NCBI RefSeq assembly: GCF_026151205.1
Contig: NC_087083.1
Coordinates: 3,944,460-4,008,459 of the forward strand
DNA length: 64,000 bases
Direction of reading: 5' to 3'
DNA from: Bolinopsis microptera
Lineage: Eukaryota; Ctenophora; Tentaculata; Lobata; Bolinopsidae
The position numbers were made by a program, and so were the translations under genes. A model generated the notes under the pieces. That model made no database searches and was not told the DNA's origin. It worked only from the letters and a program-made list of their open reading frames with translations. Within the stretch, counting starts at the first letter, position 1; every line of letters begins with the position of its first letter. Shown here piece by piece: positions 3,769 to 63,657 of the stretch.

Positions 3769-5457
3769 GAGTGGAGTTGGGTTAAAAACATATAAGAGAT
3801 ACGATGATTTAACTTGTAGAAGCTTTCAATAAACATGTGTTAATCGTCGTCAGCTGAATGTGATGTGGTGGACAATGCTTATATGTGATTGAGTGGTGTC
3901 AGGGATGGAGGGTGGGGGAGGTGTGGGTGGGAAAGTGAAAATTACAGTACAATGTCAATAAAAATTTAGTCTTCTGTTGAGGTTGAGAAGGAAATGCCAG
4001 ATGGTCTTGACTTTAAGGATTTGGCAATTTTAGGAAGAATGGGGTCCCAGAGGGAACTACATTTGGGTGCGCGGTCTGTTCTGTTCATAGCGGGTTGTCG
4101 TATTTGTATAGCTGCGTGTTCTGTGAGGTCAAGTTGGGAGCGTGAGGTGAGGGATTTGAGGACTTCGATGTTGTTCCAGGAGATGGTGTGGCCGGTGGTC
4201 AGGGCATGATGTGCAGGGGCTGATTTGATTCTGTCTGTGGATTCGTCGATGGCGTTGTTGAGTCTGTAACATCGTTCGTGTTCTTTCATGCGGTGGACCA
4301 AGGGTCTGTAGGTCTGTCCGGCGTATTTGGAGGGGCACTGTGAGCAGGAAATTTCGTAGATGGTGTTGGGAGTGAGGTGAGTAGGGGGTGTGGTCTTCGT
4401 TTTGGTGAGGAGGTTGCAGAGGGAGGTAGCAGAGGAGTGGGTGACTTTGATGTCGTGTTGTCCGAGTATCTTGGAGATGGGTTTGGATAGGGAGGGATGG
4501 AAAGGAAGAGAAACACTAAGGGCATGTTCACGGGTCTGTCGGTTGAATGAGGCTAGGGATTGGTGGCGAGAGGGGTTGGTGAATTTCCGTTGTACTTCGT
4601 CCATGATGGTGGTGATGCGGTGAGGAGGGAAGCCGTTCTGGAGGCAAACGTGTCGTACTGTCTGGAGTTCGTCGTCAAGGTGTTGGGGTGAGCAGATGTT
4701 GTGGGCTCTTCTGGTCAGTGATCGGATGACTGCGTTCTTAGATGAGTTGGTGGTGCAGGAAGAGTACTTGGTGTAGAGGTTGGTGTGGGTGGGTTTTCTG
4801 TAGACTGATGTGGATTTGTCAGGGTGGATGAGAACGTCAAGGAAGGGTATAGTTCCGTCTGTAGAGGGATGTTCTTGGGTAAAGTTGAGGTCTTCAGTAA
4901 GGGAGTTAAGGAATGTAAGGAAGGATTCTGCGTGGTTTCTGTCTCTGAAAGATCCAAGGCCGTCGTCAACGAAATGGGAGTAAGTGTTCGGAGGGTCAGG
5001 ACATGAGGATAAAGCTAAGGTCTCGATTTCAGCAAGGCGGATTTCAGCTAGTTCAACAATGAGGGGGGATCCCATTGTACCACCTTCGTCTTGGGAGTAG
5101 AAGGAGCCGTTGAATTCAAGGTATGAGTTGTCAAGGCAAAAGTTGATAAGGGAGCCTATGGTGGTGGTGGTGACATTGGAGGGAAGACGAGAGGGGTTCT
5201 GTTCAAAGGAGGAGATGACAGTTTTGAGAGCTAGGCGCATGTCACAGGAGGTGTACAAGGATTGGACGTCTAAGGAGGCGTGGTAGTGGAAGGAGGGATT
5301 GAGAGAGGAGTCGAAGCGATGTTTGAAGTCGGAAGAGTCTTTGAGGCGTAAGGGGTTCTGGGCTAGGGGTTTGAGGAAAGATGCGAGGACTTTGTGGAGG
5401 GCTTGGAGGGGGGTGTTGTAGAAGCTGACTACGGGACGGAATTAATGACTACGGGAC
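3769..5457 (-). mobile_element. Penelope-like retroelement, 5'-truncated
   Basis: The element is bounded by a perfect 15-bp direct repeat, GTTATGAATTAATCT, at 3754-3768 and 5458-5472, which I read as the target-site duplication. Between the copies lies about 1.69 kb on the minus strand: a truncated reverse-transcriptase/GIY-YIG frame and roughly 200 bp of 3' untranslated DNA (3769-3965). At the truncated 5' end GACTACGGGACG occurs twice. There are no LTRs. The clear duplication implies a fairly recent insertion. Confidence 0.85.
3966..5440 (-). CDS. Penelope-like RT with GIY-YIG endonuclease (partial)
   Basis: One open frame to the stop at 3966, open to the 5' truncation near 5440. N-terminal to the first Met-like codon it already encodes SLDVQSLYT, matching RT motif A (LDVxSLYTN in Penelope-like RTs). 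The active-site block appears as SHFVDDGLGSF, with PFLDVLI and KPTHTNLYT after it, both typical of this RT group. The last about 130 residues are a GIY-YIG endonuclease: IYEISCSQCPSKYAGQT, then RPLVHRMKEH and a conserved Glu in LTEHAAIQ. The two Cys before KYAGQT fit the usual Penelope linker. No stop or frameshift interrupts the preserved part, but the N-terminal RT lobe is missing, so the copy is not a full gene. Confidence 0.88.
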
Positions 5458-8429: not shown

Positions 8430-10772
8430 ATGGAAACAGATCACCCACGTGACACTAAAGAATCACGTGACACGACAGAATCACGTGGCACGACAGAGTC
8501 ACGTGACACTAAAGAATCACGTGACCACCCGCGGTACATGTACACTGACCCGCAGGACGCGCGCGTGTCACGTGACAAGACGCCCACTGAGCTAGCTGAA
8601 CAGTGTCTATCTGAGTTGACGGGGGGAGTTCCTAGTACTGTCTCTCTTATTGATATGGGGAACCAGGAGCATGCTAAAGCGTCGCAGTGTTTACAGGAGT
8701 TTGTAACTGAAAGAACAGCTGCACTCGGACAAAATCCTGAAAAAACAGTGGATCACAAAACAGAAGATCGTAAAACTGAGGGCAGTAATCCAGAGAGAAC
8801 TCCACGTGACGTCATCACAACACCACGTGACGTCATCACAACACCACGTGACGTCATCACAACACCACGTGACGTCATCACAACACCACGTGACGTCACA
8901 TCGCCACCGCGTGACGTCACATCGCCACCACGTGCTACGAACGGTAGAGGATTCAAAACACATGTTCCAGGGGTCTTTGGCAAGATCCAAGCTAAGTTAG
9001 ATCCCTCAATTAAGCTGGTTGGAGATGAAATAGGAGGAGATGTTATTTGCAAACCTGCCAAACTGTCCCAAGCATTTCCAGATGTTGAAACTGAGAACAG
9101 TAAGCCTGCCCCGATCATCCGTTCCTCTTCAGTACTTAGTTCAGATGATCCTGTTGAAATAGCTGAACAGTGTCTCGCTGAATTACTGAATGGAGTGCCC
9201 AATATACCACCACGTGACGTCTTATGTTCGTCACGTGACGTCATCACACCAGCACGTGACGTCATATGTTCCTCACGTGACGTCATCACACCAGCACGTG
9301 ATGCAGTACCTCCTTTACATGAAAACATCAAGCAGAAACCTGCGGTTATGAGTCGTAAAGTCAGTGCTCCAGCAATGCAGAGGAACGCACGTGGATTTAA
9401 AACCCATGTTCCAGGTATCTTTGACAAGATCCAAGCCAAGTTAGACACTTCTTTAATTCCTAATGACATGGATGAAGAATTCGATATCAAGCCTCAAAAA
9501 ACTTCAAACAATATTAGAAATACTTCTGCAACTGCTAGATCTGAAAATGGATCTGTAAAATCAGCAACACTCAGTCGCTCCTCCTCAGTCTTGAGTAGCA
9601 CAGACGACCCTGTTGAAATGGCGGACCTATTTCTGGCCGAGCTTGAAGTACCCAACATCTCCCGTATTAATCTGGACAATCTTGACCACTCTAACGCTTC
9701 TCAGTGTCTCCAGGATTCTGCCGCATTTGCCTTGTCACGTGACGTCATCACACCACCGCGTGACGTCATCACACCACCGCGTGACATCATCACACCGCCA
9801 GAAGATGTGGTCCCTCCTCTTCATGAGAATATAAAGTTTATAAAACCTCCAGTAATGCAGCGGAGAGTCAGTGCTCCAGCAATGCAGAGAAACGCACGAG
9901 GATTTAAAACCCATGTTCCAGGTATCTTTGACAAGATCCAAGCAAAGTTAGATACCTCTCTGGTTCCCGATGATGTAGAAGATGAAATCTATTCTAAACC
10001 GAAAACAAAACCCCCCTCCCGATATAACAAGACCTCCCCAATAAGCCGTTCTTCTTCAGTGCTGAGCTCCGACGATCCTATTGATATAGCGGATCAGTGT
10101 CTCGCCGAGTTACAGAACGGTAGCGGTGTGATCACACCACCACGTGACGTCATCACACCAACACGTGACGTCATCACACCACTGCGTGACGTCATCACAC
10201 CACCAGAACATGTGGTTCCTCCTCTTCATGAGAATATAAAGTTTATAAAACCCCCAGTAATGCAGAGAACAGCCAGTGCTCCAGTAATGCAGACCAACTC
10301 TAGGGGATTCAAAACTCACCTGCCGGGTATATTCGGTAAGATTCAAGCCAAGTTACCTGCAGTGAAGCTAGTCGACGAGGAAGCTGATGAAACAAGCAAG
10401 CAAAGTAATTCTCCTCCACCTTGTGACGTCATCACAACAGCACGTGACGTCATCACACCACCGCGTGACGTGTTCTCCAGACTAAACGAGTTGGAACCTG
10501 ATGGTTTCCAGAACCACTGCCCTGGTGTCTTTAACAAGATCCAAGAGAAACTGTACTTTAACCCGGAGATGAGGGAGAGTGGAGGATCAGACAACAAACA
10601 GCCCTCACGTGACGTCACAAAAAATTCACGTGACGTCACTAAGACACCACGTGACGCCACACCTCTGGATGTGTGGGATACGATACCTGCTCTGCACGAG
10701 AATATCAAGTTTATAAAAGCTCCGGTAACACAGCAGTTCACTAAACCGTTACACTACCTCGCTACTGACTGA
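8430..10772 (+). CDS. N-terminal repeat-module exon of the adaptor gene
   Basis: An unbroken 780-codon frame from ATG 8430 to TGA 10772. An in-frame TGA directly precedes the ATG, and a strong acceptor lies at 8354, so it may be an alternative first coding exon. It contains about five copies of a module of roughly 150 residues: an [DE]xAxQCLAEL helix-like motif, a run of RDVITP/T repeats, [22 protein letters not shown], then [17 protein letters not shown] and a Ser block [12 protein letters not shown] donor CCG|GTAACA at 10724 would join it in phase 0 to 12387, whose LYEDIKTPI echoes LHENIKFIK. The RDVIT runs are translated E-box/CRE minisatellites. I do not recognise the module as a known domain. 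If the donor is not used, the protein ends at 10772. Confidence 0.68.
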   Translation: METDHPRDTKESRDTTESRGTTESRDTKESRDHPRYMYTDPQDARVSRDKTPTELAEQCLSELTGGVPSTVSLIDMGNQEHAKASQCLQEFVTERTAALGQNPEKTVDHKTEDRKTEGSNPERTPRDVITTPRDVITTPRDVITTPRDVITTPRDVTSPPRDVTSPPRATNGRGFKTHVPGVFGKIQAKLDPSIKLVGDEIGGDVICKPAKLSQAFPDVETENSKPAPIIRSSSVLSSDDPVEIAEQCLAELLNGVPNIPPRDVLCSSRDVITPARDVICSSRDVITPARDAVPPLHENIKQKPAVMSRKVSAPAMQRNARGFKTHVPGIFDKIQAKLDTSLIPNDMDEEFDIKPQKTSNNIRNTSATARSENGSVKSATLSRSSSVLSSTDDPVEMADLFLAELEVPNISRINLDNLDHSNASQCLQDSAAFALSRDVITPPRDVITPPRDIITPPEDVVPPLHENIKFIKPPVMQRRVSAPAMQRNARGFKTHVPGIFDKIQAKLDTSLVPDDVEDEIYSKPKTKPPSRYNKTSPISRSSSVLSSDDPIDIADQCLAELQNGSGVITPPRDVITPTRDVITPLRDVITPPEHVVPPLHENIKFIKPPVMQRTASAPVMQTNSRGFKTHLPGIFGKIQAKLPAVKLVDEEADETSKQSNSPPPCDVITTARDVITPPRDVFSRLNELEPDGFQNHCPGVFNKIQEKLYFNPEMRESGGSDNKQPSRDVTKNSRDVTKTPRDATPLDVWDTIPALHENIKFIKAPVTQQFTKPLHYLATD

Positions 10773-16700: not shown

Positions 16701-19700
16701 TCAAGTTGTTTCCTCATCTTTATCAACGGTAAACTTTTTAGACATATTTAGACTGTTTTCGGGAAAATTTCTAAACTCTTCGAACCCATGACAATCCGGG
16801 GGGGGGGGGGGGGCATCAATCTCATAAATACTTATTATTCCCTCCGATTTCAAAATAGGTATAGGCCTTTATGTATATTTATAAGGTTGACTCCCCGCCC
16901 CCAACTCTTAAATTTCTAATTTATGACGGACATTTTTAACAATCTTTAACAATTGCATACATTTTTTTCTCGGTTTTAATAATTGTTAAATAAGTAAACT
17001 GTACCAGTAAAAGGCCTCATTGGGGACGGGAATATAAAACCGCCCTTCAAATAAAAGCCTTGTAAATTATGGGTTAATTCTATTAAAAGTAATCGCCAAA
17101 TCGCCCTAGAACTCAACAGAAGTGGACTCTAAGATCCCGGAAAACAAGAACATAACAATCGCCACCCCCGCTCCCACGACAATCTCCACAACACCACGTG
17201 ACGTCATCACTCCGTCACGTGACGTCAGAGCCGCACGTGCTGAGGAGCCGCGCGCCGCAAAGCAGGACAACATGGCGAAGGAGCCTGAAGTGATGAGATA
17301 CTGCAAAGCTAAGTATGTTGAAGAAATTGGTAGATCACTTCCTTTTACACCGTTTTACACCGTTTTACACAGTTTCACTCAGTTTTACTCAGTTTTACTC
17401 AGTTTTACACAGTTTTACTCAGTTTAACTCAGTTTTACACAGTTTCACTCAGTTTTACTCAGTTTAACACAGTTTCACTCAGTTTTACACAGTTTCACTC
17501 AGCTTTACACAGTTTCACTCAGTTTTACTCAGTTTAACACAGTTTCACTCAGTTTTACACAGTTTCACTCAGCTTTACACAGTTTCACTCAGTTTTACTC
17601 AGTTTAACACAGTTTTCCACAGTTTCACTCAGTTTTACGCAGCCACCGATCTGCATCTCCGTGATTAACTCTTCAATAACAAAATAAATCTGTGTTGAAA
17701 AGTTTTGACAGTTCCCTTAAACCCGCTCAGGTACACATTTAAAGCAGAAGGTGCTCGTGAGCTAGGTTTTAAAAAGAAAGATATTATCCGGATTAGGAGG
17801 GAGGTAGACGCTAACTGGATCGAGGGAGAGCTCAACGAACAAGTCGGAATATTTCCTCGAAATTATGTGGATATTCTAGATCCTGGTATGTATGCTTATC
17901 AGATATTAGGTTTAGTGTTGGGTGTTTAATTTGTCTGAAACAGTAAATTATTTAACTCGATTAAGGTGATGATGTAACCATGATGCATTATTCTCAGATG
18001 TAGCAAAAATAAACAATATATTAAGCTCTCTTTTAGAGAAATCACACTAAATTCTGTACTCCGAAACTGTTCATAATCGATATCTAGTTAATTAATTAAT
18101 AGTTAATTAATTAATAGTTAATTAATTAATAATTTCAGAGCCAACCCAGTCGCCCCAGGATGTGGAAACGACGTTCGAATCAAAGAAATCCCCACCCTCC
18201 CCCCACTCCCCACCCTCTCCCATCACGGACTTTACACCTAGCAGTATGAGCTACGTTCCTAGTTACCAGCGTGATATTGGCAGGTAATGGAGAGTTCTTA
18301 TCGTAGTGTCACCATGACTACCATCACTATGGCTATTATCTATCTTAATAGTTAATGTTTTGACTTCTGATATTTTAACTCATATTTGATCGCATAATAT
18401 AATAGCTTAATAGGTTCTGTTTTCACAAGATATGAAACGCAGCCTCTGTGCATATTTTGAAGGTTATTCTCCATTTGAACATTTAGCTGTTTAGATTTAA
18501 GCCATTCTACATAGCAAAACAAATAAAGTCATACAATAACATCATATTTTCAATAAAAACTTTCTTATAAAAACTTATTTTGCAGTTTGCCCCAGCTGAG
18601 TCGCTACCAAAAAAACGACGAGTCAAACAAAGAAAACAGGCGGGAAATGGAGCGAAAAAAGGAAGAAAAGCGAAAAGAAGAAGAAAGAAAAGAGCAGGAA
18701 AGAAAGGCGGAAGACCGTCGACAATCCTCGGCACGCAGACTGGCGGAAGAAAAGCAGCGTGTTATGGAACAAAGAGCAGCCGATCTTCGGAGAAAAGAAG
18801 AAGAGAAGACGTTGGAGGAGGAGACTAACCGTAGAGAAGAGCAGGATAGGAGTAAGAAAGAAAAACTGGATGCGGAGAAACAGCGAGTTAGAGAGCAGAG
18901 AGCTGCAGAGCAATTAATTAAAGAAGAGGAGAGGAGAATCGCAGAGGAGAGGAGAAGAAGGCAAGAGGAAGATGATGACAGAAGAAGGGAAGAGGTAGAA
19001 CAGCAAAGGATATACGAAGAACAGAAAAGACTCGAGCAGGAGAAAATAAGGAAGGAGGAAGAAAAGAGGCTAAGACGGGAAGCAAATGAGCGGAAACGAA
19101 GAGAGGAGGAAGAGAGGAGAAAGGAAGAATTGGAGCGAAAGAGAAAAGAGGGCGAAGAGGAGATGAGAAGAGTTCAAGATCGCATTCGGAGGGAAGAGGA
19201 AGCACGAGTCAGATTGGAAGAAGATGAAAGAAAGAAGGCGGAGGAAGAAGAGCGTCTGTGGGAGGAAGAACGCCTTCGAAAAGAAGAAGAAGACAGGAAA
19301 AGACGTGAAAATGAACAGAGAAAACGAGACGAGGAACGGCGCCAGAGAGAAAACGATGAGAGGAAGCGTCAGGAAGAAAGACTTCGAAGATTGGAGGAAG
19401 AACGGATCAGGGAAGAGGAGGTAGCTAGAGAGGAGGAAGAGAGATTACGAGAAGAGAAGAGGAAACGAGAAGAAGAGCGCTTACAGGAACTGGAGCGTCT
19501 ACATCAACAGGTGATTCTAATTGTTAATTAATTAATTACTGAGTTAATTACTGATTAATAATTAGTTCTTCTAGTTCCCAAGAAGACCAGTTCAGTAATT
19601 TGTTTATGAAAACTTACGTTACAAGACTAAAATAATGTTGTAACGAACTATTGAAAGTTTGGTTAGTTATTTAGAATATATATTCGCATGTATCCACATA

Positions 19701-22700
19701 TAATAAGAACTATTGAAACGTGAACATATGCTGATACATACTTAGAAAGAACTTGTATTCTTTGTAACACACTTTTGTTTTTCTTTGTGATAATCAGAAG
19801 ATTTTAGGAGATGGAGGAAGGAAGGAGACTTAAGGAGGAGGCGGAGGAAAGGGCCAGAGTAAAAGAGCAGAATAACATAAACTACAGGGTTTCTAACAGC
19901 GAATTAGGGAATGATGAGGACGATGATACGTTCGAGGTTAAAGCTATTTACTCTTTTAAGTCCACTGAGGACGGAGAACTTACTTTCAAAAAAGGTAAAC
20001 TTTAACAGTGTTTATTTGTTGCGGTTAATAAGTGTTATCGTCTTACTTTAATTAATATTATCGGTGTCAGCGATTATAAACGAAATCTCTTAATCCCACT
20101 GAAAACAAAAATAAGCCTCTCCTCTTACTCAGGAGCCACCATAACAGTTACTGAAGTGATAGATGATAACTGGTACTACGGGCAACTAGGCGCTGCACAG
20201 GGCATATTCCCCACAAGTTACGCAGTGAAGATTGAGGCTCCAGATCTCCCCCCACCTCCTGATCTCACAGCACAGGTACCTTTACTCCTTCATCAATACT
20301 TTACATTCCCACTTATTTTATAGATCACAGGTACCTTTACCTATCAATACTTTACATTCCCAGTTATTTTATAGATCACAGGTACCTTTACTCCTTTATC
20401 AATACTTTACATTCCCAGTTATTTTATAGATCACAGGTGCACCTTCATCAATACTTTATATTCCCAGTTATTTTATAGATCACAGGTACCTTTACTCCTT
20501 CATCAATACTTTACATTCCCAGTTATTTTATAGATCACAGGTACCTTTACTCCTTCATCAATACTTTACATTCCCACTTATTTTATAGATCACAGGTACC
20601 TTTACCTATCAATACTTTATATTCCCAGTTATTTTATAGATCACAGGTGCACCTTCATCAATACTTTATATTCCCAGTTATTTTATAGATCACAGGTGCC
20701 TTTACTCCTTCATCAATACTTTATATTCCCAGTTATTTTATAGATCACAGGTACCTTTACTCCTTCATCAATACTTTATATTCCCAGTTATTTTATAGAT
20801 CACAGGTACCTTTACTCCTTCATCAATACTTTATATTCCCAGTTATTTTATAGATCACAGGTGCACCTTCATCAATACTTTATATTCCCAGTTATTTTAT
20901 AGATCACAGGTGCACCTTCATCAATACTTTATATTCCCAGTTGTTTTATAGATCACAGGTACCTTTACTCCTTCATCAATACTTTATATTCCCAGTTATT
21001 TTATAGATCACAGGTACCTTTACTCCTTCATCAATACTTTACATTCCCACTTATTTTATAGATCACAGGTGCACCTTCATCAATACTTTACATTCCCAGT
21101 TATTTTATAGATCACAGGTGCACCTTCATCAATACTTTATATTCCCAGTTATTTTATAGATCACAGGTACCTTTACTCCTTCATCAATACTTTACATTCC
21201 CACTTATTTTATAGATCACAGGTGCACCTTCATCAATACTTTACATTCCCAGTTATTTTATAGATCACAGGTGCACCTTCATCAATACTTTACATTCCCA
21301 GTTATTTTATAGATCACAGGTACCTTCATCAATACTTTACATTCCCAGTTATTTTATAGATCACAGGTGCACCTTCATCAATACTTTACATTCCCAGTTA
21401 TTTTATAGATCACAGGTGCACCTTCATCAATACTTTACATTCCCAGTTATTTTATAGATCACAGGTGCACCTTCATCAATACTTTACATTCCCAGTTATT
21501 TTATAGATCACAGGTACCTTTACCTATCAATACTTTACATTCCCAGTTATTTTATAGATCACAGGTACCTTCATCAATACTTTACATTCCCAGTTATTTT
21601 ATAGATCACAGGTACCTTTCATCAATACTTTACATTCCCAGTTATTTTATAGATCACAGGTACCTTCATCAATACTTTACATTCCCAGTTATTTTATAGA
21701 TCACAGGTACCTTTACCTATCAATACTTTACATTCCCAGTTATTTTATAGATCACAGGTACCTTTAACTATCAATACTTTACATTCCCAGTTATTTTATA
21801 GATCACAGGTGCACCTTCATCAATACTTTACATTCCCAGTTATTTTATAGATCACAGGTGCAACTTCATCAATACTTTACATTCCCAGTTATTTTATAGA
21901 TCACAGGTGCACCTTCATCAATACTTTACATTCCCAGTTATTTTATAGATCACAGGTACCTTTACTCCTTCATCAATACTTTATATTCCCAGTTGTTTTA
22001 TAGATCACAGGTACCTTTACTCCTTCATCAATACTTTATATTCCCAGTTGTTTTATAGATCACAGGTACCTTTACTCCTTCATCAATACTTTATATTCCC
22101 AGTTGTTTTATAGATCACAGGTACCTTTACTCCTTCATCAATACTTTATATTCCCAGTTGTTTTATAGATCACAGGTACCTTTACTCCTTCATCAATACT
22201 TTACATTCCCAGTTATTTTATAGATCACAGGTACCTTTACTCCTTCATCAATACTTTATATTCCCAGTTATTTTATAGATCACAGGTGCACCTTCATCAA
22301 TACTTTACATTCTCAGTTATTTTATAGATCACAGGTACCTTGACTCCTTCATCAATACTTTACATTCCCAGTTATTTTATAGATCACAGGTACCTTTACT
22401 CCTTCATCAATACTTTATATTCCCAGTTATTTTATAGATCACAGGTGCACCTTCATCAATACTTTACATTCCCAGTTATTTTATAGATCACAGGTGCACC
22501 TTCATCAATACTTTACATTCTCAGTTATTTTATAGATCACAGGTACCTTGACTCCTTCATCAATACTTTATATTCCCAGTTATTTTATAGATCACAGGTG
22601 CACCTTCATCAATACTTTACATTCTCAGTTATTTTATAGATCACAGGTACCTTTACTCCTTCATCAATACTTTACATTCCCACTTATTTTATAGATCACA

Positions 22701-24903
22701 GGTACCTTTACTCCTTCATCAATACTTTACATTCCCAGTTATTTTATAGATCACAGGTACCTTTACTCCTTCATCAATACTTTATATTCCCAGTTATTTT
22801 ATAGATCACAGGTACCTTTACCTAACAATACTTTACATTCCCACTTATTTTATAGATCACAGGTACCTTTACTCCTTCATCAATACTTTATATTCCCAGT
22901 TATTTTATAGATCTCAGGTACCTTTACTCCTTCATCAATACTTTATATTCCCAGTTGTTTTATAGATCACAGGTACCTTTACTCCTTCATCAATACTTTA
23001 TATTCCCAGTTATTTTATAGATCACAGGTGCCTTTACTCCTTCATCAATACTTTACATTCCCAGTTATTTTATAGATCACAGGTACCTTTACTCCTTCAT
23101 CAATACTTTATATTCCCAGTTATTTTATAGATCGCAGGTACCTTTACTCCTTCATCAATACTTTACATTCCCAGTTATTTTATAGATGTGGGTAATGATG
23201 TGGTACGCCATATTTGTTTCGACGCCCGCGCTTGTTAATAATTTCTTACTATGTATATTATAAGTCGTTCAATAATTCATGCTAGAAGTTGATCCGTTAA
23301 TCGCTGTTGCGTATCAGAGAAATAATGGCTCACTTCACCACCAGTACACAGATCCATGACTATATTTAAAGCGAGTATTTTGAAGATTTAAGATTATTGT
23401 CTGCTCAACTTTGTGACTCTAAGCTGTTGTTGTGACATTAAACTGTACTACAGAGAATATTGTCTGCTCAACTTTGTGACTCTAAGCTGTTGTTGTGACA
23501 TTAAACTGTACTACAGAGAATATTGTCTGCTCAACTTTGTGACTCTAAGCTGTTGTTGTGACATTAAACTGTACTACTAAGCTGTTGTTGTGACATTAAA
23601 CTGTACTACAGAGAATATTGTCTGCTCAACTTTGTGACTCTAAGCTGTTGTTGTGACATTAAACTGTACTACAGAGAATATTGTCTGCTCAACTTTGTGA
23701 CTCTAAGCTGTTGTTGTGACATTAAACTGTACTACAGAGAATATTGTCTGCTCAACTTTGTGACTCTAAGCTGTTGTTGTGACATTAAACTGTACTACAG
23801 AGAATATTGTCTGCTCAACTTTGTGACTCTAAGCTGTTGTTGTGACATTAAACTGTACTACAGAGAATATTGTCTGCTCAACTTTGTGACTCTAAGCTGT
23901 TGTTGTGACATTAAACTGTACTACAGAGAATATTGTCTGTTCAACTTTGTGACTCTAAGCTGTTGTTGTGACATTAAACTGTACTACAGAGAATATTGTC
24001 TGCTCAACTTTGTGACTCTAAGCTGTTGTTGTGACATTAAACTGTACTACTAAGCTGTTGTTGTGACATTAAACTGTACTACAGAGAATAGAAGACTGTC
24101 TAGAGGAATACGAGTCTCCAGAAACAGTCGACCAGTCACGTGATAGTTTTCTTGATGATAGTGGTAACCTTGACAACACCGATAATCTTGAAAACAGCGG
24201 TATTGTTGACAACAGATCTGCAGAGGATTCTGACGATTTCCAGGTTGGTTAAAAAACAGCATATACCGAATTTAGTTGAGTATTTAGTTGAGTATTTAGT
24301 TGAGTATTTAGTTGAGTATTTAGTTGAGAATTTAGTTGAGTATTTAGTACCATAATCTCAGTATTAGTTAGTGTTACTCCGAGTATAGCTTTCTCGAAGT
24401 TAATCGGGAATTAACTGTATGAATATAGCATAGTACTTAAAATTATTAAATTATTGATGTTCAGAATAAAAGTTTTACTTTAGTTAACAATGTCCAGGAT
24501 TACGAGTTATACGTAGCCCAGTACAGTTACCAGCCCCTTAATGATGACGAGTTGGAACTCCAGCGAGGGGACATTGTGGAGGTTACTTTTTATATTTATT
24601 TATTTAATTGATTAATAGATATGTTTATTTAATAATATTTTAATAAACTTTATTTAAATTTCATTATTCTATAGACTTTATTGCTCGTTTTGTTAACATA
24701 GAGCAAGGACTTCAAACGTCGTTTTTACAGTTATCTCTTTGAAGATAACTTAATATCTGTCTGCGCGGCTCAGTACTGCTCCTTCATAAACTCTCCCACA
24801 GGTTATCGAGAGATGTGATGACGGTTGGTTCGTTGGAACCTCACAACGAACAGAAAAGTTCGGTACATTCCCCGGTAACTACGTTCTACCCAGCGAGGAG
24901 TGA
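8430..24903 (+). CDS. SORBS-like triple-SH3 adaptor protein, 14-exon model
   Basis: Joined exons: 8430-10724, 12387-12473, 13449-13529, 13944-14024, 15564-15659, 17110-17312, 17731-17885, 18139-18283, 18586-19510, 19808-19994, 20133-20275, 24085-24243, 24465-24581, 24802-24903. Every junction is GT-AG and all phases agree, giving 1591 codons. Seen: N-terminal tandem modules, Ser-rich exons, SH3-1 (about 944-999), a charged coiled coil (about 1048-1356), SH3-2 (about 1397-1452), an acidic linker and SH3-3 (about 1532-1588). Known: CAP/vinexin/ArgBP2 (SORBS) adaptors carry three C-terminal SH3 domains that bind vinculin and other adhesion and signalling partners. Inferred: this is their relative, acting at the cytoskeleton. 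The order of the three domains matches. No SoHo domain was recognised, and a coiled coil sits between SH3-1 and SH3-2. The 5' end and the inclusion of the first exon are uncertain; the part from 12387 is firm. Confidence 0.72.
10773..12386. other. Intron DNA with a decayed module copy and arrays
   Basis: At about 10849-10908, in a frame different from the preceding exon, the DNA still encodes GTGIFNKIQ and DIFDEI, a decayed continuation of the GIFDKIQ module. At about 11170-11465 there are five copies of a 60-bp unit (GGGAACAATTCAATAATAG...). From 12130 to 12360 runs a TTTGTATG-type simple repeat. No further exon is evident. Confidence 0.55.
12387..12473 (+). CDS. Small exon, adaptor gene (LYEDIK motif)
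   Basis: Acceptor CCCGTTAG, donor TCA|GTAAGT; 29 codons from [14 protein letters not shown] to the Ser-rich end GRSFNSSS. Both ends are phase 0. The LYEDIKTPI stretch resembles the [11 protein letters not shown] motif of the preceding large exon, which supports membership in the same gene. Confidence 0.65.
12474..12725. repeat. 20/40-bp intronic minisatellite AGCGCTTSTTARCGCTCAAC
   Basis: About six copies of a 40-bp unit made of two diverged 20-mers (AGCGCTTCTAACCGCTCAAC and AGCGCTTGTTAGCGCTCAAC). The array starts within 6 bp of the donor of the exon ending at 12473. Confidence 0.9.
13449..13529 (+). CDS. Small Ser/Pro-rich exon, adaptor gene
   Basis: Acceptor GTTCTTCTCAG, donor CCA|GTTAGT, 27 codons, phase 0 at both ends. 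It encodes [18 protein letters not shown] followed by FAGPISTKP, a disordered, phosphorylatable linker type. The donor is the founding point of a 54-bp minisatellite. Confidence 0.75.
13530..14250. repeat. 54-bp minisatellite founded on a splice donor
   Basis: About ten units of roughly 54 bp. The first unit starts at the donor GTTAGTTATTAATTT, and each later unit ends in ACAAAACCA|GTTAGT, copying the exon end ACCAAACCA|GTTAGT. The array is split by the exon at 13944-14024 and resumes with four units beyond it, in the next intron. Confidence 0.88.
13944..14024 (+). CDS. Small exon, adaptor gene, embedded in minisatellite
   Basis: Acceptor CAAATTTTACAG, donor ACG|GTAAAC, 27 codons ([20 protein letters not shown], then YDGHPNT), phase 0 at both ends. 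The same 54-bp repeat family flanks it on both sides. No domain recognised. Confidence 0.68.
14251..15563. other. AT-rich intron DNA
   Basis: No exon with matching phase is seen. It contains AACTATGGT-type repeats at 14610-14700 and a TTAATTAA run at 15510-15540. Confidence 0.5.
15564..15659 (+). CDS. Small exon, adaptor gene
   Basis: Acceptor TTTACCCATCTCAG, donor AAA|GTAATT; 32 codons, [19 protein letters not shown] then [13 protein letters not shown], phase 0 at both ends. Probably a helical linker. Without splicing the frame continues to a stop at about 15755 with a duplicated VINRLRDNE block, which is intron sequence containing a 27-bp tandem duplication. Confidence 0.7.
15870..16575. 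repeat. 18-bp intronic minisatellite GACACACTCCCCCTGTGATTA
   Basis: About 38 nearly identical copies of an 18-bp unit (ACACTCCCCCTGTGATTAG by phase). It produces long artefactual frames on both strands (RHTPPVI, CLITGGV). It lies wholly inside the intron between exons 15659 and 17110. Confidence 0.95.
16799..16815 (+). repeat. G homopolymer
   Basis: A run of about 16-17 G within the same intron; prone to length variation and G-quadruplex formation. Confidence 0.8.
17110..17885 (+). CDS. Exons for PRDVIT linker and SH3-1
   Basis: Two exons, 17110-17312 and 17731-17885, joined across phase 2 so that AA+G restores Lys. The first encodes a Pro/Thr linker with [13 protein letters not shown], the same heptad used in the 8.4-10.7 kb exon and in the same reading frame. 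The junction starts SH3-1: [25 protein letters not shown], then [20 protein letters not shown]. It has the ALYDF-like start, the Trp of the ligand groove and the GIFPxNYV end expected of an SH3 domain. The RELxxxKxDIIxI and GIFPRxY pattern is close to the first SH3 of CAP/vinexin. It binds proline-rich ligands. Confidence 0.88.
17330..17640. repeat. Decamer array AGTTTYACWC in SH3-1 intron
   Basis: About 30 units of AGTTTTACTC / AGTTTCACAC, period 10 (occasionally 11). Many units contain TTTTACTCAG or TTTACACAG, which resemble 3' splice sites. The real acceptor is at 17730. Confidence 0.85.
18139..18283 (+). CDS. Pro/Ser-rich linker exon
   Basis: Acceptor AATTTCAG, donor CAG|GTAATG; enters in phase 1 and leaves in phase 2. 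It encodes [19 protein letters not shown], then a run rich in Ser-Pro and [11 protein letters not shown]. Likely a flexible linker after SH3-1; PxxP-like SPPSP elements could be SH3 ligands. Confidence 0.82.
18586..19510 (+). CDS. Long charged coiled-coil exon
   Basis: A 925-bp exon (acceptor TTTTGCAG, donor CAG|GTGATT) coding about 308 residues that are almost entirely E, K, R and Q, for example [19 protein letters not shown]. The pattern fits a single alpha-helix or coiled coil of the caldesmon/ezrin-linker type. It separates SH3-1 from SH3-2. The purine-rich (GA) composition gives long mirror frames on the other strand that are not genes. Low-complexity helices align with many unrelated proteins, so homology searches should mask it. 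Confidence 0.88.
19808..20275 (+). CDS. Exons for end of coiled coil and SH3-2
   Basis: Exon 19808-19994 (acceptor AGATTTTAG; upstream AGs give in-frame stops) finishes the coiled coil and starts SH3-2 with [20 protein letters not shown]. Exon 20133-20275 joins in phase 1 and supplies [36 protein letters not shown] and a [12 protein letters not shown] tail. The ALYxF-like start, the EL-F acidic loop, the NWYYG Trp and GIFPTSYV are complete SH3 landmarks. The exon ends ACA GCA CAG|GTACC, and the intron's minisatellite begins at that point. Confidence 0.9.
20276..23187. repeat. 2.9-kb minisatellite built from the SH3-2 exon donor
   Basis: About 55 units in two main length classes, 55 bp (GTACCTTTACTCCTTCATCA...) and 49 bp (GTGCACCTTCATCAATAC...). 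The first unit starts at the real donor CACAG|GTACC. Every unit ends TTATTTTATAGATCACAG and is followed by GTACC or GTGC, so each repeats a juxtaposed AG|GT with the last five exon bases. Units are highly homogeneous, with block-wise variants (TATATT/TACATT, AGTTGT/AGTTAT). Confidence 0.93.
23395..24084. repeat. 63-bp minisatellite containing the next exon's acceptor
   Basis: About ten units of 63 bp (AGAATATTGTCTGCTCAACT ... ACTGTACTACAG). The last unit ends at the functional acceptor TACTACAG|AGAATA at 24084, and every unit carries the same acceptor plus the first six exon bases. Because 63 is divisible by three it gives an open frame ([17 protein letters not shown]...), which is artefactual. 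Confidence 0.92.
24085..24243 (+). CDS. Acidic linker exon
   Basis: 53 codons, phase 0 at both ends, from [18 protein letters not shown] to [11 protein letters not shown], rich in Asp, Glu, Asn and Ser. It links SH3-2 to SH3-3. Acceptor TACTACAG, donor CAG|GTTGGT. A TATTTAGTTGAG 12-bp repeat (about six copies) lies in the following intron at 24275-24350. Confidence 0.82.
24465..24903 (+). CDS. Exons for SH3-3 and stop codon
   Basis: Exon 24465-24581 (an alternative acceptor at 24497 keeps the frame) encodes [19 protein letters not shown] and RGDIVE. Exon 24802-24903 encodes [19 protein letters not shown], then [14 protein letters not shown] and [26 protein letters not shown] and FGTFPGNYV are near-diagnostic for the third SH3 domain of CAP/vinexin/ArgBP2. 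The stop is followed in the same frame by PRDVITT heptads (see separate entry). Confidence 0.92.
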
Positions 24904-25092
24904 CCGCGTGACGTCATCAAAACACCACGTGACGTCATCACAACACCACGTGACGTCATCACAACACCACGTGACGTCATCACAACACCACGTGACGTCA
25001 TCAAAACACCACGTGACGTCATAGTAGCACTTGTTGAAGTCTGTGACTACTATACATCGTTATTCATCATGAACTGCAGTGCGCTGATGTAG
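24904..25092 (+). other. In-frame heptad extension after the stop codon
   Basis: Directly after TGA 24901-24903 the same frame stays open for 62 codons to TAG at 25090. It begins with six PRDVI[TK]T heptads (21-bp units, 24904-25019) and ends with a short hydrophobic tail. The heptads match, in the same frame, those in the 8.4-10.7 kb and 17.1 kb exons. It is either 3' UTR made of a leftover coding minisatellite or a C-terminal extension reached by readthrough of TGA-C. Confidence 0.7.
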
Positions 25093-30139: not shown

Positions 30140-32372
30140 TTTTTTTTATTATTTTTTTTAATTTTTTTAATGAGAGGCTGGGCCAAGATAGCCCACGAGA
30201 GGATAGCATTGAGATGCTCTGCCTACCTCTGGGGTGTGGCAACCTTGGGGAAGGTTGCCGGTGAAATCAGAGTGATTGGTGGAGGATGGTGTAAGCTGTT
30301 ATATGAGTCAAAAAGATACGCTTAAATGCCAGCTGGGTTTGGAAAAGTAAAACGAGACGAGACAGCATATGAGATAATACTTTAAGTCCCCCGGTCTGAT
30401 CCAGTTCTTCCGGCACAATTAAGCGTTTGGTGCGGTTTGTGAAATTGACAATTGTGGTGATGTGTTGGTTGTCGAATATGTCATTGACAGAGAGGTAGTA
30501 GTCCTGGAAATATTGACCTCTAATTTGGGCAATAGACGGACACTGTCCAAGGAAGTGTGAGACAGTTTCCTCTCCGTCGCCGCACATAGGACAAGCACTG
30601 GTGTTTGATTTGCAAATGGTGTGAAGGTGTTTGTTTAAGCCGCAGTGACCCGTGATGAGGTGAACTGCAGTTCTGTAATCTTGTCTGTTTTTGCTGAGTG
30701 TAGTGTTGAGGTTTTTGATGATTTTGGCATGCTTGTGGCCGAGTGTCAGTTTGGTGTGTCTGGGACCGTCAGTTAACCAAGTTTCCTGATTCAGTCTGTT
30801 GACTTTGTTGTCGATTTGACGCTTGATGTAGGATTGTGGAATTGGACACTTCAAAGTGGTTTCACTGATTATACCAAGCTTGGCCAGCTCATCTGCTTTT
30901 TCGTTCCCCCACAATCCGATGTGTGCTGCAATCCATCGTATCTCTAGCGTGTTGTTGGATCCGAGTGCATTAAGAGAGTCGTAACAGTCTCTTGTAGTTC
31001 TACTCCGCGTTGAAAGCGCAGAGATAGCTTGTATAGATGAGAGACTGTCAGACCATATGATGATATGTGTGTTGGTATAGGTAGAGAGAAATTTGCAAGC
31101 TTCAATGATGGCGGTGAGCTCTGTTTGGTAAACAGTGCAATAATCAGGGAGCTTGAATGATCTTTCTTCAAGGGTGGTGTTATTGTTGTCAGTTGTGATG
31201 ATATAGCCAGCCCCGCATCCTGAGTCTGTGAGTGACCCGTCAGTGTAGCAGGTGATCGTTTCACTGGTAATGTTGTCAATAGTGTTTTGAAGTGAATTTC
31301 TATATTCAGTGTTATCGGCTCCAGGAGTTGTGACGGTGAAGTGCCGTCCCAGCATCATGGTTGGTGTTGTTAGGTCTCTCGTTGCTCTAGGTGGAATAAT
31401 GAGATCTGCCATGAATTGTTTGTTGATAGTGGTATGATTTTTGATAGTTCCCTTCCTGAAGGCGATAGTTTCAAGAGTGAGGCTGCCATAAGCTTGTAGC
31501 CTGGCCGCACCCTTTGCTGCTTCGCCTTGCAGGAACAGTATGATGTCAGAAGTGTCGGTGAGGTGATTCAATGCGATAAAAGGTGTGCTTGGCATGGCAC
31601 CAGACATCATTCTGAGTGCCAATGCCTGAACACGTTTGAGTTTCTTCGCGTTATAGTCCGTTTGAGTGGCCCTGATCCATATACTACAGCAGTAGGATAG
31701 GATTGGACGGATGACAGCAGTGTACATCCATTTGCATGTTTTGGGGCTCATACCCCATGTGGGGCCGACAGCTCTTCGACATTGCATGAGGGATGCCGTG
31801 GCTTTTTTGGTGGTGTTGATGATATGTTCATTGAAGTTGAGTTTGCTGTCCAAGGTCACTCCTAGAAATTTAGCAGACTTGGACAGACCTATAATGTTGT
31901 TGCCAACTGTTATAGGTCTTAGAATCCACTTACTATTCCAGGTAAACATGACTATCTGAGTTTTAAGGGCACTAATAGATAGCTCTTTGGTTCTGCACCA
32001 ATTTTCAATCGTTTTAATAGTTTTGCATGTTCGGTCCCAGATGATGTCTAAATCATCCCCTTCCGCTAGAGACAACAGATCATCCACAAAGGCTTGCAGG
32101 TAACCCGGGATGTCTTTTGCGGTAAAGGAAAGGAGATCGTCGACTACCAGGTTCCAGAGAAAAGGAGAGAGAATGCCTCCTTGGGGGCAACCTCGCCTGA
32201 TCCGTACCCTTCTCGACTTACCCTTATGATTTAGTGTGATGAATCGATTGGTTACCATGTTGATGATCCACTGTGCAGTAGCCAAGTCCACTTTCGTAGC
32301 CTTGACTGCTTCAGAGATAGCCTTGAACGAGATTGAACATCGGATTGTTTTGTTGCTAGACATGAAATTCAT
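30140..32372 (-). mobile_element. 5'-truncated LINE with RNase H
   Basis: The body runs on the minus strand. Its 3' end is marked by an A-rich tail, seen on the plus strand as a T-rich tract at about 30140-30170, directly after the coding end. The 5' end is truncated inside the RT domain near 32345-32372; upstream DNA does not continue the RT. No target duplication was fixed. Confidence 0.82.
30267..32372 (-). CDS. LINE polyprotein: partial RT, RNase H, C-terminal zinc motif
   Basis: A single 701-codon open frame. RT: GCPQGGILSPFLWNLVVDDL (motif B region), active site LQAFVDDLLSLA (FVDD), LSISALKTQIVMF and KFLGVTLDSKL. RNase H follows at about residues 390-510 with CYTDGSLTDSG, TVYQTELTAI, IIWSDSLSSIQAI and AAHIGLWGNEKADELA, so the D-E-D-D residues are all visible. 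Near the C terminus is a CPMCGDGEETVSHFLGQCP zinc-knuckle-like motif common in such LINEs. An RNase H domain after RT points to the I/Jockey/R1-like group. The endonuclease and RT motif A are missing, so the copy cannot be autonomous, yet the remaining frame has no break. Confidence 0.87.
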   Translation of the reverse strand: MNFMSSNKTIRCSISFKAISEAVKATKVDLATAQWIINMVTNRFITLNHKGKSRRVRIRRGCPQGGILSPFLWNLVVDDLLSFTAKDIPGYLQAFVDDLLSLAEGDDLDIIWDRTCKTIKTIENWCRTKELSISALKTQIVMFTWNSKWILRPITVGNNIIGLSKSAKFLGVTLDSKLNFNEHIINTTKKATASLMQCRRAVGPTWGMSPKTCKWMYTAVIRPILSYCCSIWIRATQTDYNAKKLKRVQALALRMMSGAMPSTPFIALNHLTDTSDIILFLQGEAAKGAARLQAYGSLTLETIAFRKGTIKNHTTINKQFMADLIIPPRATRDLTTPTMMLGRHFTVTTPGADNTEYRNSLQNTIDNITSETITCYTDGSLTDSGCGAGYIITTDNNNTTLEERSFKLPDYCTVYQTELTAIIEACKFLSTYTNTHIIIWSDSLSSIQAISALSTRSRTTRDCYDSLNALGSNNTLEIRWIAAHIGLWGNEKADELAKLGIISETTLKCPIPQSYIKRQIDNKVNRLNQETWLTDGPRHTKLTLGHKHAKIIKNLNTTLSKNRQDYRTAVHLITGHCGLNKHLHTICKSNTSACPMCGDGEETVSHFLGQCPSIAQIRGQYFQDYYLSVNDIFDNQHITTIVNFTNRTKRLIVPEELDQTGGLKVLSHMLSRLVLLFQTQLAFKRIFLTHITAYTILHQSL

Positions 32373-33522
32373 GTTCTCTGAATTCTGGCGCAGTTTTTGA
32401 TGCCCTCAAAAATGTGTTTTAAATTCAACTGTAAAGTTGATCTTTTGCACCTCAAAGCCAAACAACAAATTTAGGCATATTTTTCGTTTTAAATATTTAC
32501 AGATTTTTCTAAAATTTCGATAGGAATCTGCAACTAGCACATTTATACATAAGTTATGAATAAAAAACACCCTAAAATGCTTTCTTTTAAAGTTATGGGA
32601 GAAAATATGATTTTATCAGAACTTCCTATGAGGTCATTTGGGCTGGACAGTTTTGGTGTATGCCCTCTTAAGGTGGACAATAACAAATATTTTTTGAGCC
32701 AATGATAGATATGAATGCAAAATTTCAAAAGTCAGTTATACACATACGTTGGGTCTTATAAAGTTATAACATAGCTATGTTTTATAAATGATATACTGTA
32801 ATGGCGCGAAACAGATTTAAAATGATAAAGGTATCAAACAATTTTTTTATTTCGTTAGCAAAATTAATTCCTTTAACTTGGGTTATCATATGCTTGCTAC
32901 GACACCATAATTGAGCTGCTCTGTACGATTCCCATGGTGCGGATCTAGCGTCAACCTAATCACCTGATTCTGCATAATGATCAATAAGCTCTTGATTCAT
33001 ATCATTCATCTGAGTAGCAGCCAGTAGGACAGGAGCTCCCATATTTTCAGGAAAAGTGTCCTGAAGTTTTTCAAACTCATTACAGTACAATTCGACTCAA
33101 TCCAATCATTCAAAATATCTAAAAACCGCAAAAATGAACGTTCATTCGAAAAAATGTATAACATTGTTGTTATTTTATTTGATGTATTCCTCGAATGAGT
33201 GATAATACACAAAGAGAATTATATCTGGATTGTGCTAATTAATTAACATAGTATGTAATTATTCGAGCACACCTGGCTTTTTTTACATAACTTAACTACT
33301 GCTTTATAGGGCAAGAAAGAAAGACGCCACTTGCACTGAAACCAACCTCGGACACACTATTCTATTTCAAGGTAATAAACGACCACTTTAAATAAATGGT
33401 ACTAGTCATTTTGGAAGTTGACTGAAATTCAATAATTAGGTACTACGAGAGCTGTGTGATATATAATCAAAATATTAAGTATTAATCCTTGATTCTTTGA
33501 TTTTTTTAATCTGCATTACTCC

Positions 33523-48178: not shown

Positions 48179-50207
48179 ATAATCTTGTTTTGCTCTTATG
48201 AGTGGGTCAATCATTTATTTTTAATTGTAGTTGACGAAATGAGAGTCTCCACTCAGTGTGTTAAAACATAATTCTTTGTCGACGTTTCGGCTACATGCCT
48301 TTGTCATAAACAGGACGTACTGAAAACTTACATAGCTGCAAAGATACAATGTTAAAATAATCTATTAAATTAATCTATTAATACTACGAAATATAACAAC
48401 AACAAATAACATCTTGAAACACAACAACAATCACAAATTTATCCAAAAGAAACATAAAATATAACGGCTAAAAGAATCCAAACCGCAACAAGCCGTGAAC
48501 AATTCTTCATAATACTACAAACATTTTACCAAGATAGCTCCTTCATAAAACTGATTAATCAAAAATTATCTAGGTTTATAAGTTCAATATTACATTAACT
48601 TCCAAGTATATTTTATCCAATCACCTTCATTTACGGACTCAGACAATTGAGTATTTATTTCTGGGTTTTCACGTTTTATTAGAACCGACTGCCACAATTG
48701 ACGGTCCACATAGTCTTTACATCTTTTTCGAACTATAAACCGAAACGGTATGTTTGGCATTGAAATGTCTGCATGCTCCTCTAGGTAGTGCTTCCCCATG
48801 GCCGTAGATTTGTTGCCATCCCTTACTGATTTGTAGTGTTCCCAGGCTCTACTTCTTTTAAACCTACCAGTTTCCCCAATGTAGGACTTATTACATATTT
48901 GGCATATTAATTGGTAGCAAATGTTTTTGATCATGCAGGATTTATCGCACTGGTAGCATTTGCTGTCACTTTGTTTATTGCATTTTGTTTGCTGTAGGCT
49001 AGATCTTCCATGAGACGTTAAAGCTTCCATGACGTTGACCTGATGTGAATGTTACCCTGGTGGAATCCAAGAGGTTTTGATTTCTTAGGGTATAGTAGAC
49101 TTTTCGACACGTCTGTTCATTTATATAAGGTAATGATAAGTAAGCTATTTTTGAGTTCTTTTTAGGCGCATTTTGTTTATCCAGTGTATTCTGTGTTTCT
49201 CGAATAAGTTTCTTGACAATATTAGGAGGGAAACTATTCTTCTTTAGCATATCAGCTATTCTGTTGATACTGAGATCTTGTAGTTCAGGTGTGGAGCTGT
49301 TATTGATAGCCCTTCTGATCTCATTTTTGGCTGAGTTCAGAATCGTTCTACGAGGGTGAGCAGAGGCATAATTTAGGAATATGTCCTGGCTGGTTGGTTT
49401 AACAAATAAGGAAAAATCTAACCTCTTGTCCACCGTATTCATATAGATGTTCAGGTCCAAAAATGCAACACAATCTTTGGAGCACTCATATGTGAACTGT
49501 ATATCCCTGTTCAACGAGTTAATGTAGTTAAACAGCAATAGTACTGTGTCTTCATCTCCCTCGATTATGCTGAAGCAGTCATCTACATATCTATCCCACA
49601 TATCTATGATTGGGAGTCCTACTGGTTTGGGGGGAGCTTCTGGTATGTAGGAATAGTCGTTCTCCATCAGAGGCAATTCGATTGTACAGTAAACATAGAT
49701 TATTGCAAATGGTGGAGCTGGTTTCACACCCATGCCGAGTCCATTTAGTTGTTGGTAGAACTTTGAATCAAATCTGAAGTATCCTGCCTGTATGACTGAT
49801 TTGAGGACCAAGTCAAAGTCCCCGAGGTCCATTCCATTTGTATCGATTTTATCCCTGTTGTTTTTTATGAACTTTATGATAACTTTGTGTCCTTCTACAA
49901 GTGGGACATTTGTGTAGAGGCTTTTCACATCAGCCGTGAACATTATGTGGTTTGTGTTTATTCTTCCCATCCAATGATCTTCTAATTTTTGCCGAAATTG
50001 AGGAGTGTTCTTAGTGTTAACGGGAACCAAGTCTAGTGCTTGGTTAAGTATATTGGTAACAAAATGACCTAGTCTTTCCGCTGGTGAATCTACTTGGGAT
50101 GTGACAGGTCGCAAGGGTGGCGGTGAAATATCTTTGTGTGTTTTCCATGTACAATAAAACTCTGGTATACGAGGAAGATATGGATTACAATGTTCTCCGA
50201 TCCAAGG

Positions 50208-50269
<62 letters not shown>

Positions 50270-50517
50270 TGTAAGTGAAATTATCAAGCCATCTATATCT
50301 GTGTTCATGCGAGGAAGAGGATTTATTTGTTGTTGTTATATTTCGTAGTATTAATAGATTAATTTAATAGATTATTTTAACATTGTATCTTTGCAGCTAT
50401 GTAAGTTTTCAGTACGTCCTGTTTATGACAAAGGCATGTAGCCGAAACGTCGACAAAGAATTATGTTTTAACACACTGAGTGGAGACTCTCATTTCGTCA
50501 ACTACAATTAAAAATAA
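48179..50517 (-). mobile_element. Penelope-like element with inverted terminal repeats
   Basis: Flanked by a 14-bp direct repeat ATAATCAGAAATTG (48165-48178 and 50518-50531), read as target duplication. The ends are near-perfect inverted repeats of about 197 bp (48213-48409 and 50323-50519), with 34 bp of extra DNA outside the left arm. Each arm contains the GGCATGTAGCCGAAACGTC motif, a GGC/GCC stem followed by GAAAC that recalls hammerhead ribozymes known from Penelope-like terminal repeats; the usual CTGATGA core is not exact. A T56 tract (A56 in the sense strand) lies at 50213-50268. It is inserted between the two secreted-protein paralogues. Confidence 0.83.
48590..50212 (-). CDS. Penelope-like RT and GIY-YIG endonuclease, frameshifted
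   Basis: The RT frame (open from the poly-A tract at 50212 to 48999) has PEFYCTWKTHKDISPPPLRP at its start, ADVKSLYTNVPL (motif A), FYQQLNGLGMGVKPAPPFA, the active site WDRYVDDCFSI and CVAFLDLNI. The GIY-YIG frame (to the stop at 48590) has KCYQCDKSCMIKN, ICYQLICQICNKSYIGETG and RAWEHYKSV. The two frames overlap at 48999-49030 in different registers, so one indel or programmed shift separates nuclease from RT. The RT N terminus is replaced by the A56 tract, so the copy is probably dead. Confidence 0.85.
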
Positions 50518-61934: not shown

Positions 61935-61953
61935 CTAGAAGATGTGCAGTGAC

Positions 61954-62868
61954 TAACAGAGTGACTAACAGAGTGACTAACAGAGTGACCAACAGAGTGA
62001 CCAACAGAGTGACCAACAGAGTGACCAACAGAGTGACCAACAGAGTGACCAACAGAGTGACTAACAGAGTGACTAACAGAGTGACTAACAGAGTGACTAA
62101 CAGAGTGACTAACAGAGTGACTAACAGAGTGACTAACAGAGTGACTAACAGAGTGACCAACAGAGTGACCAACAGAGTGACTAACAGAGAGACCAACAGA
62201 GTGACTAACAGAGTGACTAACAGAGTGACTAACAGAGTGACCAACAGAGTGACTAACAGAGAGACCAACAGAGTGACTAACAGAGTGACCAACAGAGTGA
62301 CCAACAGAGTGACTAACAGAGTGACTAACAGAGTGACTAACAGAGTGACCAACAGAGTGACCAACAGAGTGACTAACAGAGTGACGAACAGAGTGACTAA
62401 CAGAGTGACTAACAGAGTGACTAACAGAGTGACTAACAGAGTGACCAACAGAGTGACCAACAGAGTGACCAACAGAGTGACTAACAGAGTGACTAACAGA
62501 GTGACTAACAGAGTGACTAACAGAGTGACCAACAGAGTGACTAACAGAGTGACCAACAGAGTGACCAACAGAGTGACCAACAGAGTGACCAACAGAGTGA
62601 CCAACAGAGTGACTAACAGAGTGACTAACTGAGTGACTAACAGAGTGACTAACAGAGTGACTAACAGAGTGACTAACAGAGTCACTAACAGAGTGACTAA
62701 CAGAGTGACTAACAGAGTGACTAACAGAGTGACTAACAGAGTGACTAACAGAGTGACTAACAGAGTGACTAACAGAGTGACTAACAGAGTGACTAACAGA
62801 GTGACTAACAGAGTGACTAACAGAGTGACTTACAGAGTGACCAACAGAGTGACCAACAGATTGACGGA
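61954..62868. repeat. 12-bp array GTGACTAACAGA, about 76 copies
   Basis: Units vary almost only as GTGACTAACAGA or GTGACCAACAGA, in runs of like units. The array lies directly 5' (minus sense) of the exon ending at 61934, about 20 bp from its acceptor. Long VTNR and VTLL frames on the two strands are artefacts. Confidence 0.96.
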
Positions 62869-62875
62869 CTACTAA

Positions 62876-63657
62876 CGAATTCCAAGGACTTAATACAAAA
62901 TTAATTTAACTAAATTAGTTTAGGAACAACTCAATATTATAATTACTGTGATCTTCTGATAATGATTACAAAACTTACACTGACAGATATATTACTTAAA
63001 CGTTTTTGACTGGTTCAAATGCTATGATATAATGGCCAGCATGAAAAAATAAAAAATTGGTCAAGGAATAAGAATTTTAGTGCCCAAAATTTTGACGAGA
63101 GAAAGAAAATATAATAATGAAGCTATAGAGTATGTGGAGTATTATAATGCACTATAATATACACTACCATATACACTCATACAGTATACACTATAATGAT
63201 TAGCAATGAAAGTAACTTTATACATGGAGCTGAGGAAAGTGAAATAGCTGTGTCAAAATAGCTGTTGTGGTATAATTACTGCATCTAATTTCTTGAACGA
63301 AAACTGAAAATCCTCAGTAACAACATCAGAGTATAATATATAAATAACTGGGAATGTAAAGTATTGATAAAGGAGTAAAAGCACTTGATTCTTATTAAAG
63401 ATGCTCGAATTGTGATCAATGACTATATTTCTTGCATGTAAACCTTGTGGTAAATGATCATTCTATATTGTCCATATCTCAGGAACAGTCACGTCATAAA
63501 ATATAAAAATAATAGTCAGATTTATGTTTTATAAAACAATCCCACAGATAGTTTGTCTTTGACATGCTATTCTCGGCTTACTGTAAACATGCATTATTTT
63601 AAATATAAATCATGACTGCGGTATAATGATATTCTTGATAACAATCATATTTTTCAG
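62876..63657. other. AT-rich DNA with one dispersed minisatellite unit
   Basis: No supported gene. At 63339-63380 it carries one inverted copy of the 55-bp minisatellite unit from 20.3-23.2 kb (see findings). Confidence 0.5.

Follow-up and report, generated by a model that had tools for sequence, protein, structure and literature searches.

Why should a single intron open with dozens of copies of its own donor and close with ten copies of its own acceptor, and what, if anything, would the copies do? The question is raised by a gene of the ctenophore Bolinopsis microptera that lies in a window of 64,000 nucleotides (C12:3944460-4008459, the whole stretch of DNA analysed here); the genome searched comprised 264.65 Mb in 232 contigs. 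When joined, the exons of this gene encode two SH3 domains (PF00018 in a Pfam domain scan), the last of which matches best to SORBS1 (92.8 bits) and vinexin (86.1 bits), the next molecule being GRB2 (58.4 bits). An NCBIfam search for the gene gave no match. A genome search for let-7, a marker of bilaterians, returned nothing, but as its control likewise gave no match the result carries no information. By these similarities the host gene is a predicted SORBS/vinexin-like SH3 adaptor, and its relevant parts are as follows.

17731..17885, forward strand: exon encoding the greater part of the first SH3-like domain (reading frame; edges placed by eye)
20133..20275, forward strand: exon before the intron, carrying the rest of the SH3 domain begun in the exon that ends at 19994, and ending ...DLTAQ (open frame joins, PF00018)
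20276..24084, forward strand: intron of 3809 bp (array-free counterpart in the copy on contig C1)
20271..23187, forward strand: donor-side array of 55 full units of 47-55 bp and a final partial unit (Tandem Repeats Finder, cutting at CAG/GT, where the slash marks the junction)
23188..23390, forward strand: single-copy intron spacer (alignable with the C1 copy)
23391..24084, forward strand: acceptor-side array with ten TACTACAG acceptors, in units of 63 bp (seven) and 95 bp (two) (Tandem Repeats Finder, alignment to the C1 copy)
24085..24243, forward strand: exon after the intron (open frame joins)
24498..24581, forward strand: exon in which the last SH3 domain begins (domain scan, frame; SORBS1 match)
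24802..24903, forward strand: last coding exon, which completes the last SH3 domain and holds the stop (domain scan, frame)

The exon joins at 20275 and 24085 are supported by reading frame and homology. The original prediction had described an intron at 20276-24084 with a donor array in front and an acceptor array at its end, and both repeat finding and the cutting of units confirm this layout. With both arrays collapsed to one unit each the intron would measure 316 bp, as compared to its actual 3809 bp. Elsewhere in this gene, two more intronic arrays, at 17343-17642 and 24270-24348, reach no splice site and provide a useful contrast.

On the donor side, Tandem Repeats Finder reports a 55-bp array of 56 copies at 20271-23187. 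Each unit consists of CACAG, the five exonic bases that end the exon, and the first 50 or so bases of the intron, and cutting at CAG/GT yields the real donor and 55 internal ones, 56 in total. The full units, which read GTACC...TTTTATAGATCACAG when cut in this way, measure 55 bp (27 units), 49 bp (18), 51 bp (6), 47 bp (3) or 48 bp (1) and comprise 22 distinct sequences in mixed order; five variable columns lie in their last 36 bases and the remainder of the variation just after the GT. The GT at the start and the CAG at the end are present in 55 of 55 units, and the AG/GT at each unit boundary is without exception a CAG/GT (55 of 55). Of the 56 donors, 36 share one sequence over positions -3 to +6, which agrees with the U1 consensus at seven of nine positions; the remaining 20 agree with it at five or six of the nine. 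Each internal CAG/GT junction is preceded by a T-rich stretch, and TATAG stands seven bases upstream of the CAG end in every one of the 55 units.

The acceptor side is detected as 63-bp arrays at 23391-23577 and 23577-24050. It had been predicted to consist of about ten 63-bp units, and as to the number of acceptors this holds: there are ten TACTACAG/AGAATA sites, the real one at 24084 included. They are generated, however, by nine units, which are not all of the predicted length. The units contain 4-6 exonic bases and are nearly identical to one another, a single base change being visible among them. RNA folding is ordinary for two units of each kind (z of -0.54 and 0.32).

Evidence on the origin of the arrays comes from contig C1. 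A search of the genome DNA with two donor units returned, beyond the array itself, 36 bp of similarity on C1 and, within the window, an inverted piece about 50 bp long; acceptor units, searched separately, matched 49 bp on C1, some 230 bp away from the 36-bp donor-like piece. Among the scored candidates of these unit searches, which covered one assembly, there was no second copy of either array. This part of C1 (L029 and L030) holds the end of the SH3 adaptor gene as a diverged copy, whose longer alignments with the window gene show 77-88% identity. Its frame is open, its junctions are those of the window gene, and over 183 codons the comparison of the two gives a dS of 0.229 and a dN of 0.060 (dN/dS 0.26). 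The similarity begins at window position 19533, a shared 21-bp minisatellite aside, and the C1 copy, judged from its extent, looks like a partial duplicate. Its intron is short and contains a single donor unit, a single acceptor unit and no array. Because a short and array-free intron is thus found between matching junctions, the layout in the window is no product of chance, and the most likely origin of both arrays is growth from real exon/intron edges that were present once each, which bears out the earlier proposal of tandem growth from both of them. That the C1 copy lost its arrays rather than never having had them is possible but less simple.

The inverted piece is a single copy of the donor-unit body at window positions 63337-63387 on the reverse strand, 39 kb past the end of the intron; it is 90% identical over 50 bp, is apparently devoid of a CACAG/GT junction, and has the look of a copy templated by the donor array or derived from a shared source. 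The 21-bp minisatellite (CACGTGACGTCATCAC...) occupies window positions 8430-10772 (forward strand), where it lies within a long open frame of PPRDVIT-type heptapeptides (by eye), recurs at 17187-17236 and at 24903-25022, immediately downstream of the SH3 gene's stop, and likewise follows the stop of the C1 copy.

But would the copied sites be of any use to the gene? We paired all 56 donors with all 10 acceptors and translated the resulting joins, considering single-step splicing only. The frame is kept to the end in one of the 560 choices, that of the outermost pair. Whenever a downstream donor is chosen the first unit is retained, and with it a TAG in frame; from the upstream acceptors, translation runs into a TGA in frame. 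Since one choice in 560 stays in frame, the copies are not interchangeable as regards the protein and would be unable to make up for loss of the real site; under single-step splicing, the extra sites are predicted not to buffer splice-site mutation. The original prediction had envisaged dozens of equivalent sites as such a buffer and the array as a splicing ruler. The former idea is not supported by these results, and the latter finds no support in splicing choices that, away from the outermost pair, hit a TAG or a TGA in frame. A stepwise (recursive) path via CACAG/GT could, on the other hand, end in normal mRNA.

How unusual, then, are such arrays in this genome? Counting arrays with units of 9 bp or more in three or more copies, we find 47 minisatellites in the window outside the intron arrays, and 22 in 50 kb sampled from ten round-coordinate places, three of which had none. 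Simple arithmetic from the 50-kb sample, which assumes random and independent placement, puts the chance that a founding duplication spans a given junction at about 0.9-1.25% and, on the same assumption, introns hit at both ends at about 0.8-1.6 in 10,000. Rare as the two-ended case is, it lies within rough neutral expectation.

Similar arrays are present elsewhere. Three perfect donors CAGGTAAGT in a row, with gaps of 15-45 bases, gave 450 overlapping matches in the genome as compared to 0 for the reversed word (one control; counts uncorrected for the frequency of CAGGTAAGT itself). The 100 of these 450 places that were listed correspond to nine arrays, all of which were read. Among the matches listed, seven of the nine arrays adjoin apparent coding exons, and three of these seven exons have a protein-family match.

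C10:4505800-4508600 (L062): homeobox array, 21.5 units of 35 bp after an exon ending ...LAKSLNLAQIQVQ, followed by VWFQNRRAKCKKTGV; homeodomain match from the joined exons at E 4.4e-23, above the curated cut-off
TAF2 exon: acceptor-side array, 37 bp x 10; TAF2 E 1.9e-14, above the curated cut-off; TFIID subunit 2 E 0.00057
WDR62-like WD40 exon: donor-side array, 29 bp x 10; E 8e-5, below the curated cut-off; WD40-type structure matches
C4:1262426, C4:3730100, C10:1535228 and C10:17037541: four arrays, each with an exon recognized by frame and splice signals, by eye
C10:17036500-17039000 (L063), reverse strand, the locus of the array at C10:17037541: small apparent exon with three 34-bp acceptor-side units on its 5' side and 42 donor-side units of 27 bp on its 3' side

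The exons scanned at the four loci recognized by eye had no family match. One of these exons, at C10:17037541 (L063), seems to be flanked by both kinds of array. For the arrays at C6:20294637 and C8:17904441 no adjoining exon is visible; the latter is an 11-bp array and accounts for 42 of the 100 places listed. The 35-bp unit of the homeobox array, at the start of the homeodomain intron, is mostly coding sequence plus donor.

Taken together, these observations are in our judgement probably explained by neutral duplications that spanned the junctions in a minisatellite-rich genome, with the extra sites carried along as passengers and the outermost pair in use. Two separate tandem duplications, one over each edge of the SORBS-like intron, would have founded two minisatellites, and slippage or unequal exchange would later have enlarged both. 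A duplication spanning the donor would leave the exon and its original donor unmoved and merely add sequence to the intron, and one spanning the acceptor would do the same in mirror image. Since the exon and the original site stay in place, such duplications should be tolerated provided that the spliceosome continues to pair the outermost donor with the outermost acceptor; the internal sites would then be decoys, and normal SH3 adaptor would be made directly from the outermost pair only. We infer both the mechanism of array growth and the use of this pair. Simple random placement does not account for the reach of both arrays into the exon by about five bases, and hits at both ends of one 316-bp intron are uncommon by chance. 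The internal GT and CAG, intact in 55 of 55 units, count against a passenger role too, though most other columns are fixed as well.

A rival reading would make the donor array a recursive-splicing ratchet. Every internal junction is a CAG/GT behind a T-rich stretch, and splicing of the exon to any of them would regenerate CAG/GT, so that each CACAG/GT might act as an acceptor and then as a near-identical new donor, that is, as a dual-specific site. The array would be removed stepwise, or cleaned up after use of an internal donor, and the final mRNA would be unchanged. A study of human UBC describes dual-specific AG/GT sites in use within tandem repeats, and an enrichment of such sites in repeats (PMC10809524). 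Then again, units of 47-55 bp are very short as separate introns, and the TATAG present in each of the 55 units would, if taken as the acceptor, leave seven extra bases and shift the frame; we are decidedly doubtful of such a recursive ratchet. A broader proposal would make splice junctions preferred birthplaces of minisatellites, give many introns arrays of usable sites and turn the 55 CACAG/GT-type junctions of the SORBS-like intron into zero-length recursive points. If true, an intron lengthened ten-fold would be removed stepwise with its mRNA unchanged, but we hold this, too, to be unlikely.

The remaining readings would have the copies kept for what they do, or not be there at all. Decoys that compete with the real sites might set the output of the gene, in that transcripts with premature stops are destroyed or yield a protein that lacks the last SH3 domain. 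Decoys are indeed numerous near the real sites, and stops sit directly behind both kinds; however, AT-rich units commonly hold stops by chance, and the C1 copy is array-free, and we regard regulated poison splicing of this sort as very improbable. Still less credence can be given to the idea that the copies are maintained as a backup of the real sites or for timing. The identity of 36 of 56 donors over nine positions and the near-identity of the acceptor units would fit it, but direct use of any pair other than the outermost breaks the frame, the C1 copy manages without arrays, and unrelated arrays stand at apparent exon edges of other loci. Assembly of long tandem arrays is difficult, and it might in principle have produced the lengths seen here, or both arrays as such. 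The mixed order of 22 distinct unit sequences and the like structures at other loci argue against this, and it carries next to no weight with us.

Arrays over splice junctions also have a precedent. No described system built in this way had been known to the original prediction, but one has been published from amphioxus under the name of 'mirages', of which Canestro 2002 is reportedly the founding paper, and similar arrays adjoin apparent exons elsewhere in the B. microptera genome. Mirages are minisatellite-like repeats that span exon/intron boundaries, in Adh3 and the globins BflGb6 and BflGb9 (Ebner et al. 2010, PMC3087553), with TnC and PGBD5 added later (PMC3902484), and they reportedly leave splicing undisturbed (PMC3087553, PMC3902484). 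The intron arrays described here are likewise minisatellite-like tandem arrays whose unit spans an exon/intron boundary, as placed by frame and homology, and like the amphioxus repeats they are founded on a donor or acceptor edge and have many units with AG/GT signals. They differ in that the host is a ctenophore and a single intron has been amplified at either end, and in size, with 55 and 9 units here as compared to the 2-7 given for amphioxus globins and PGBD5 in the available text (PMC3087553, PMC3902484).

Partial resemblances exist to other systems. Intron gain via duplication of AGGT is said to be the Rogers model. Cryptococcus intron gain by repeat expansion shares with the present case the tandem duplication of DNA that bears splice sites (PMC2395259), but no new intron is evident in the B. 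microptera gene. In human segmental duplications, tandem repeats at exon-intron boundaries are described in connection with 27 intron modifications (De Grassi and Ciccarelli 2009, PMC2812944). There as here, growth of minisatellites at the edges differs between recent paralogs; the human repeats can cause novel introns, whereas in B. microptera the old intron has been kept and only lengthened. With the dual-specific arrays of UBC and VCX3A our donor units have the AG/GT at unit boundaries in common (Duan 2024, PMC10809524). They are nevertheless not of the UBC type, because the UBC units are given as coding, 228 nt long and in frame, and those of B. microptera vary in length (55, 49, 51, 47 and 48 bp) and hold in-frame stops.

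The arrays of this intron thus belong to a known kind, the mirages, and what may be new is the two-ended layout, the copy number and the phylum. Our search of a literature collection with few subscription journals found, among the titles listed, no ctenophore report of edge-spanning arrays and no published description of the two-ended arrangement, of this copy number or of ctenophore occurrence. Mirages are extended in this way from amphioxus genes to a ctenophore, in which similar arrays recur. A classic experiment with duplicated splice sites exists, and the intron offers natural versions of it, in which dozens of donors are nearly alike and so are the ten acceptors. RNA of a single individual could reveal how the spliceosome chooses the outermost among many similar sites, and also whether arrays feed the birth of new introns.

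Elsewhere in the window, a 12-bp unit (AGTGACTAACAG) is repeated 76 times at 61948-62865 and is open in several frames on both strands. Long frames that resemble retroelement reverse transcriptase by eye lie on the reverse strand at 30267-32405, 3966-5441 and 48999-50363.
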